Positions 23,909 to 24,613 of a stretch of DNA of 64,000 nucleotides are shown here, piece after piece (the first letter of the stretch is position 1; each line of letters starts with the position of its first letter). Source of the stretch: Candidatus Nanopelagicus hibericus. Lineage in GTDB: Bacteria; Actinomycetota; Actinomycetes; Nanopelagicales; Nanopelagicaceae. Where the stretch lies: contig NZ_CP016771.1 in NCBI RefSeq assembly GCF_002288005.1, positions 310,001 to 374,000 on the forward strand. The letters run 5' to 3'. Made by a program: the position numbers and the translations under genes. The notes under the pieces are model-generated. The model was not told the origin of the DNA, made no database searches, and was given only the letters and a program-made list of their open reading frames with translations.

Positions 23909-23918
23909 TCAAGTGATA

Positions 23919-24032
23919 ATGCTTAATGAGAATCTGCGGGAACTACCGATGTCGCCAGCATTATTTGGCTTGGTTACCTTTGGAATTCTCTCACTCCTGC
24001 TTTATTTAACCCTTCGTATTGACCGGGATTAA
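23919..24032 (+). CDS. Small single-pass membrane protein upstream of nadD
   Basis: A 37-residue open frame, ATG at 23919 to TAA at 24030-24032, that reads MLNENLRELPMSPALFGLVT and then a Leu-rich segment ending LTLRIDRD. It has an acidic/charged N-terminus, one membrane helix (about 13-31) and a basic tail, so the N-terminus is probably outside or peripheral. A GTG two codons upstream (23913) is in frame. Similar small membrane proteins commonly sit just ahead of nadD in Actinobacteria (from memory, not checked). Its stop codon overlaps the apparent ATT start of nadD by one base, which suggests translational coupling. Function unknown. Confidence 0.7.
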   Translation: MLNENLRELPMSPALFGLVTFGILSLLLYLTLRIDRD

Positions 24033-24613
24033 TTATCAGCGCAGTAAGTAAAGAGTTTGCAATATTTGGTGGAACTTTTGATCCCATTCATCTCGGTCAC
24101 CTACATCTTATAAAAGAGATCTCAAATAAATTTGAAAAAGTGCTGGTTATTCCAGCAGGAGCTCCTTGGCTCAAAGACAACCCACCGCTGGCAAATTCTG
24201 AACAGCGATTTCAAATGGCTGACCTTGCTGTTACCTCAATGGGCCTTGCTGAAAAAGTAGAGGTACTTCCAATTGAAATTAGAAAAGCGGGTAGCAGCTA
24301 CACAATAGATACTGTTGAGGATCTTAAGCAGATTTATCCAGAGGCCAACTTCACCTTGGTAATCGGCTCTGATGCCGCGTTGCATCTAGATAAATGGCAT
24401 AGATCTGCTGATTTATTAAAGTTAGTGAAGATATTGGTGGTCAAGCGACCAGCAACTCCACCCTCAGATTTTGAGGAAATCTCAATTAAAGCATTGGATA
24501 TCTCATCAACAAAGGTGAGAAAATCAATATCTAATCGAGAGAATGTAAGCAGTTTATTACCACCCAAGGTGGTTACATTTATTAGAGAGTATGGGTTATA
24601 TGGCAGTCGGTAG
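24032..24613 (+). CDS. nadD: Nicotinate-nucleotide adenylyltransferase with apparent ATT start
   Basis: A 193-residue NadD. The nucleotidyltransferase signature FGGTFDPIHLGHLHL is encoded at 24065-24109 and the second signature ISSTKVRKSI near the C-terminus is intact. The frame opens after a TGA at 24020-24022 and contains no ATG, GTG or TTG before the HxGH motif; the first standard start (GTG 24140) would delete that motif and inactivate the enzyme. The best start is ATT at 24032, giving ISAVSKEFAIFGGTF, overlapping the upstream TAA as TAATT where TAATG is the usual coupled arrangement. Alternatives are ATC, ATA, or a sequence error. NadD adenylates nicotinate mononucleotide in NAD synthesis. 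Confidence 0.85.
   Translation: MISAVSKEFAIFGGTFDPIHLGHLHLIKEISNKFEKVLVIPAGAPWLKDNPPLANSEQRFQMADLAVTSMGLAEKVEVLPIEIRKAGSSYTIDTVEDLKQIYPEANFTLVIGSDAALHLDKWHRSADLLKLVKILVVKRPATPPSDFEEISIKALDISSTKVRKSISNRENVSSLLPPKVVTFIREYGLYGSR

Follow-up and report, generated by a model that had tools for sequence, protein, structure and literature searches.

A probable non-canonical start codon for nadD beside the stop codon of a small membrane-protein reading frame in freshwater Nanopelagicaceae

Introduction

Near-cognate start codons are normally inefficient. Hecht et al. reportedly obtained initiation from all 64 codons in 2017, and Binns and Masters reportedly described an AUU start for pcnB of E. coli in 2002. 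The infC gene, which encodes initiation factor IF3, starts with AUU in E. coli and with ATC in Streptomyces, and sigR of Streptomyces has a conserved GTC start that limits its output; the near-cognate starts of both genes are repressed by IF3, as was found for sigR by experiment (PMC5472188). In Staphylococcus grown in poor medium, reporters for the starts of cvfC1 (AUU) and ccpN (AUA) reached about 10% of the expression obtained with AUG (PMC13009471), and AUU is disfavoured in vitro, with the normal initiator anticodon, as IF3 rises (PMC10158994). Our search of the open-licence literature found no paper tying nadD to non-canonical starts. Here we report that nadD of a freshwater actinobacterium is probably translated from such a start, a reading to which we give a probability of roughly 0.85 on the basis of sequence comparisons.

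Reading frame and candidate starts

The genome is one contig of 1,223,088 bases, and the window, a stretch of 64,000 nucleotides, covers its positions 310001-374000. The features that concern us are listed below in window positions.

23913..24032, + strand: small membrane-protein ORF with a single transmembrane segment, 39 aa; a conserved ORF adjoining nadD family-wide
24025..24028, + strand: GGGA, a weak Shine-Dalgarno-like element
24030-24032: TAA, stop of the small membrane-protein ORF
24032..24034, + strand: ATT, candidate nadD start, overlapping the small-ORF TAA; invariant in the genus (16/16)
24035..24037, + strand: ATC, alternative candidate nadD start; ATT in 14/16 genus sequences
24032..24613, + strand: nadD, nicotinate-nucleotide adenylyltransferase, 193 codons plus the TAG stop
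24068..24100, + strand: GGTFDPIHLGH, nucleotide-binding/catalytic motif, 5' of the first standard start
24140..24142, + strand: GTG, first in-frame standard start codon; a start here deletes the active-site motif

After TGA at 24020-24022 the nadD frame reads CCG GGA TTA ATT (24032) ATC (24035), and then AGC GCA GTA AGT AAA GAG TTT GCA ATA TTT until the GGT (24068) of the motif. When the frame was read codon by codon, neither ATG, GTG nor TTG was found from this TGA until GTG 24140. The first-pass annotation had likewise reported a stretch free of standard starts between the TGA and an intact GGTFDPIHLGH motif, and an ATT overlapping the small-ORF stop as TAATT; its coordinates proved right, with GGT at 24068 and the stop at 24030-24032. 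The following codon, ATC 24035, was absent from that annotation and is an equally serious start candidate.

Identity of the enzyme

The frame from 24032 scores 152.5 bits against the NadD model NF000840 (cut-off 150) and 148.6 against TIGR00482 (cut-off 112.45); with both curated scores reached and a GGTFDP.H..H motif at 24068-24100, the protein belongs to the NadD family. In the alignment with B. subtilis NadD (1kam), which begins six residues in, just before its motif, SKKIGIFGGTFDP pairs with SKEFAIFGGTFDP at the motif region. NadD is normally essential.

GTG 24140 being the first standard start in the frame, it can be supposed that translation begins only there and that nadD is a truncated, degraded remnant. 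This start would cost the enzyme its active-site motif, as the first-pass annotation had pointed out, and the profile scores fall accordingly: NF000840 drops under its cut-off, TIGR00482 is barely passed (112.9), and the first 29-38 profile positions are lost, including the N-terminal strand and GGTFDPIHLGH. Moreover, the gene is single-copy in the genome, and the stretch 5' of GTG 24140 keeps 89% protein identity to G001, where the standard start lies 25 codons further in. This conservation of the upstream stretch already contradicts the remnant reading, which we regard as most improbable. Other acI genomes, of strains different from the window strain, are reported to contain NAD biosynthesis (PMC5301498), as would be expected if NadD works in the group at large.

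Conservation within the genus

We compared 16 distinct nadD 5' ends of the genus: that of the window and those of 15 relatives, whose sequences come from independent assemblies. The sequence GATTAATTAT (24027-24036) is invariant in the whole set; all 16 keep GATTAATTAT[T/C], and the junction reads GATTAATTATT or GATTAATTATC. On the nadD tree of these 16 sequences, the ten bases 24027-24036 require zero parsimony steps and 24037 one change between T and C (C being the state of the small clade to which the window belongs), whereas the three positions of the next variable codon, 24038-24040, require 4, 5 and 6 changes. The invariance of 24033-24036 is unexplained by the small ORF, because these bases follow its stop, and the conservation pattern is more than chance.

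Fifteen of the 16 sequences have no standard start at all. The exception is L007, whose GTG lies eight codons before the motif, within the conserved N-terminus and four codons inside it; in L026 and L027, on an outer branch of the genus, a TTG stands in frame at a distance of 12 codons from the motif. These three sequences count against our reading, as does a Shine-Dalgarno match of just 3 bases in the window, and so do the usual essentiality of NadD and the usual inefficiency of near-cognate starts. For it stand the observations that no standard codon gives an intact domain and that a near-cognate codon is conserved across species.

The first-pass annotation also raised the thought of a single-base sequence error. 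ATT would then be a former ATG altered in sequencing or assembly, and TAATT and TAATG do differ by that base only. ATT is, however, kept in all 15 distinct genus relatives, among them one single-cell and two other complete genomes, and two further genera share TAATT without any standard start. Independent assemblies with the same arrangement rule out such an error, and we leave it practically no probability. Close relatives were examined for an ATG at 24032 and for a frameshift that would provide another start, and neither was found. L005 (CAMCVO010000010.1), a record titled Bifidobacterium breve, has a nadD locus grouping in the freshwater genus and appears to be mislabelled.

Choice between AUU 24032 and AUC 24035

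The start is probably AUU 24032 or AUC 24035, which we hold about equally likely; conservation slightly favours the former and the spacing of the ribosome site the latter. For AUU 24032, its third base is invariant, as in a start codon, while the T/C variation at 24037 resembles a synonymous position of an Ile codon, and the TAATT overlap is also the form of genera g9 and g12. For AUC 24035, the GGA core lies six bases 5', the same as in infC (AAGGAGAACTTATC) and before the g9/g12 ATT. The element GGGA (24025-24028; AAGGA in some relatives) is separated from ATT 24032 by 3 nt and from ATC 24035 by 6 nt. Among 75 sampled ATG genes with a clear Shine-Dalgarno sequence, spacing 4, which fits 24035, occurs in 11 and spacing 1, which corresponds to 24032, in 2; with a match of so few bases in the window, this spacing argument for 24035 is weak.

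UUA at 24029 was rejected as a start of nadD, as it is not a known start codon. A past UUG start at this position is possible, given that L028 (genus g13) has TTG there.

Starts across the family

Within the family Nanopelagicaceae, 56 of 110 distinct nadD 5' ends, from six genera, lack a standard start, defined as ATG, GTG or TTG at least 4 codons before the motif. Per genus, the start-free sequences are 15/16 in g1, 17/17 in g7, 13/14 in g37, 3/3 in g6, 5/5 in g9 and 3/3 in g12; the remaining genera of the family have nadD with TTG, GTG or ATG. The first-pass annotation called AUU starts very rare; this holds for the sample of this genome, but in the family six genera normally have nadD with a non-canonical start.

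The candidate codon and its surroundings differ among these genera. At the junction of g9 and g12, GGATCACTAATT, the TAATT overlap is found again amid different surrounding bases. Of 30 sequences from g7 and g37, 28 have ATC seven codons before the motif, as codon -7, flanked by variable codons -8 and -6; in L054, TAG lies directly 5' of CTC ATC and leaves only 8 open codons for a start. The L028 junction, AAGGATTGATTATCC, in which TTG overlaps TGA at the position of UUA 24029, is one G-to-A step from AAGGATTAATTATT of the window genus and may represent an intermediate in start-codon turnover; the comparison suggests that in the window genus AUU may have replaced an earlier UUG start that overlapped TGA.

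At the class level, a standard codon lies 4-30 codons 5' of the nadD motif in 28 of 30 relatives. The other two, L223 and L228, have none in that interval, and unusual nadD starts may thus occur outside Nanopelagicaceae.

A tree of 52 NadD proteins, with moderate support among genera and some long branches, and with L007 and L045 (g37) counted as standard, requires at least five changes between nadD with and without standard starts. Such turnover among TTG, GTG, ATG, AUU and AUC is what would be expected if the start, though non-canonical, reflected drift in streamlined genomes and had no regulatory meaning. This reading concerns only the functional part of our proposal. Against it, other sampled genes retain standard starts, and AUU or AUC has persisted within genera through long divergence; we consider drift possible but rather unlikely.

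The upstream small ORF

Across the family, a conserved ORF of about 40 aa, ending ...LLLYLTLRIDRD, lies directly 5' of nadD. It contains one hydrophobic stretch and begins in the window with GTG 23913, where most genus relatives have ATG; the 37-aa form of the protein has no match in Pfam or PADLOC. The stop of this ORF overlaps the nadD start in the window and the genus and lies near it in most relatives examined. Proximity of stop and start together with a conserved arrangement characterizes translationally coupled pairs, and translation of nadD is rather likely to be coupled to the small ORF.

With the two ORFs so close, ribosomal frameshifting or readthrough of the stop might instead extend the small membrane protein into NadD, which would then have no start of its own, and in some relatives the nadD frame is indeed open 40 or more codons back into the small ORF. 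In the window, however, TGA 24020 means that a shift would have to fall within three codons (24023-24031), where no slippery heptamer was seen; sister genera have normal TTG or GTG starts at the same place. Furthermore, all three frame relations between the small-ORF stop and nadD are found across the family, therefore no single fusion mechanism could be conserved and internal initiation fits better than a fused product. We judge the extension highly unlikely. A regulatory RNA or riboswitch was also rejected, as the nadD region has no Rfam match and its folding (z +1.28) is not unusual.

Search for other non-standard starts in the genome

We set about 464 kb of this genome against about 400 kb of a second complete genome from the genus and obtained 221 genes with homologues, of which nadD alone was a clear case; a gene that has a standard codon no more than about 6 codons from its true start escapes this survey. 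In nadD, a recognised protein, a long and conserved coding-like stretch of 37 codons, 89% identical, precedes the first standard start. Genome-wide relaxed initiation was rejected, since nadD was the sole clear case in this sample of 221 genes. Two short start-free ORFs (G000:18539-18943) resemble the antisense shadow of a genuine gene, and the other long start-free 5' extensions read as overlaps with neighbors in other frames or as leaders before an ordinary start, with two exceptions. One of these, L151 12754-13467 (G000:936754-937467), encodes a signal-peptide-like protein whose relative in G001 starts with ATG where the codon here is non-standard; it possibly has a non-standard start or a start moved to GTG. 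The other, L145 1608-2633 (G000:559608-560633), has a signal-peptide-like N-terminus, IILKRVLALLLICSI, 5' of its first standard codon and is a possible second AUU start.

The infC gene of this genome starts with ATC behind AAGGAG (L049 2008-2010, minus strand; G000 about 650082-650084), with no standard start upstream in its frame, and the ATC is found throughout the genus and the class sample. It agrees with the infC start published for Streptomyces (PMC5472188) and lends support to the proposed start of nadD.

Discussion

In the simplest account of the locus, ribosomes that terminate on the small ORF at TAA 24030-24032 would sit at the nadD start and reinitiate, helped by the weak GGGA/AAGGA element, and initiator tRNA would read a near-cognate Ile codon, AUU 24032 or AUC 24035. 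The codon would limit initiation and keep the NadD level low; low synthesis is expected because published near-cognate codons can cut output and are repressed by IF3. Regulation of NadD through its start would follow the same lines: since IF3 is known to reject near-cognate codons, NadD yield may also track the IF3 level, although we consider such control of nadD rather less likely than not. More speculative still, and in our estimate improbable, is the wider proposal that abundant freshwater actinobacteria set their NadD level through a near-cognate start which depends on reinitiation and is sensitive to IF3, with lineages repeatedly swapping the weak codons UUG, AUU and AUC at the coupled junction and thereby tuning that level; if this were true, NAD production would be tied to the state of the translation machinery.

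With nadD, the gene of an essential metabolic enzyme joins the few in bacteria whose conserved start is other than AUG, GUG or UUG, in a group of widespread freshwater bacteria. The swaps among UUG, GUG, AUU and AUC at one junction offer a natural series for studying start strength and the evolution of reinitiation. We predict that annotation restricted to ATG, GTG and TTG cuts NadD below its active site, and surveys could wrongly score these organisms as lacking the NadD step.

Among known systems, infC resembles nadD in being an essential gene with a conserved near-cognate Ile start, which is AUC in the infC of this genome. It differs in its strong AAGGAG and in encoding the very factor that reads the codon, which allows autoregulation, whereas nadD encodes a metabolic enzyme and has a weak site and an overlapping upstream ORF. 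The sigR gene is likewise an actinobacterial gene with a conserved non-canonical start, but its codon is GTC, its product is a stress sigma factor, and the experimental IF3 effect concerns sigR. Conserved non-canonical starts are shared also by cvfC1 and ccpN, the latter linked to central metabolism; these have extended strong Shine-Dalgarno motifs, unlike nadD, whose weak motif abuts an upstream stop. An enzyme gene limited by an AUU start, as pcnB of E. coli is reported to be, would be a further parallel, though in another gene and another lineage. To our knowledge, no comparable exchange of start codons between genera has been described. We conclude that nadD is a further case in the known class of conserved non-canonical starts and that the exchange of weak start codons between genera at this gene is unusual.
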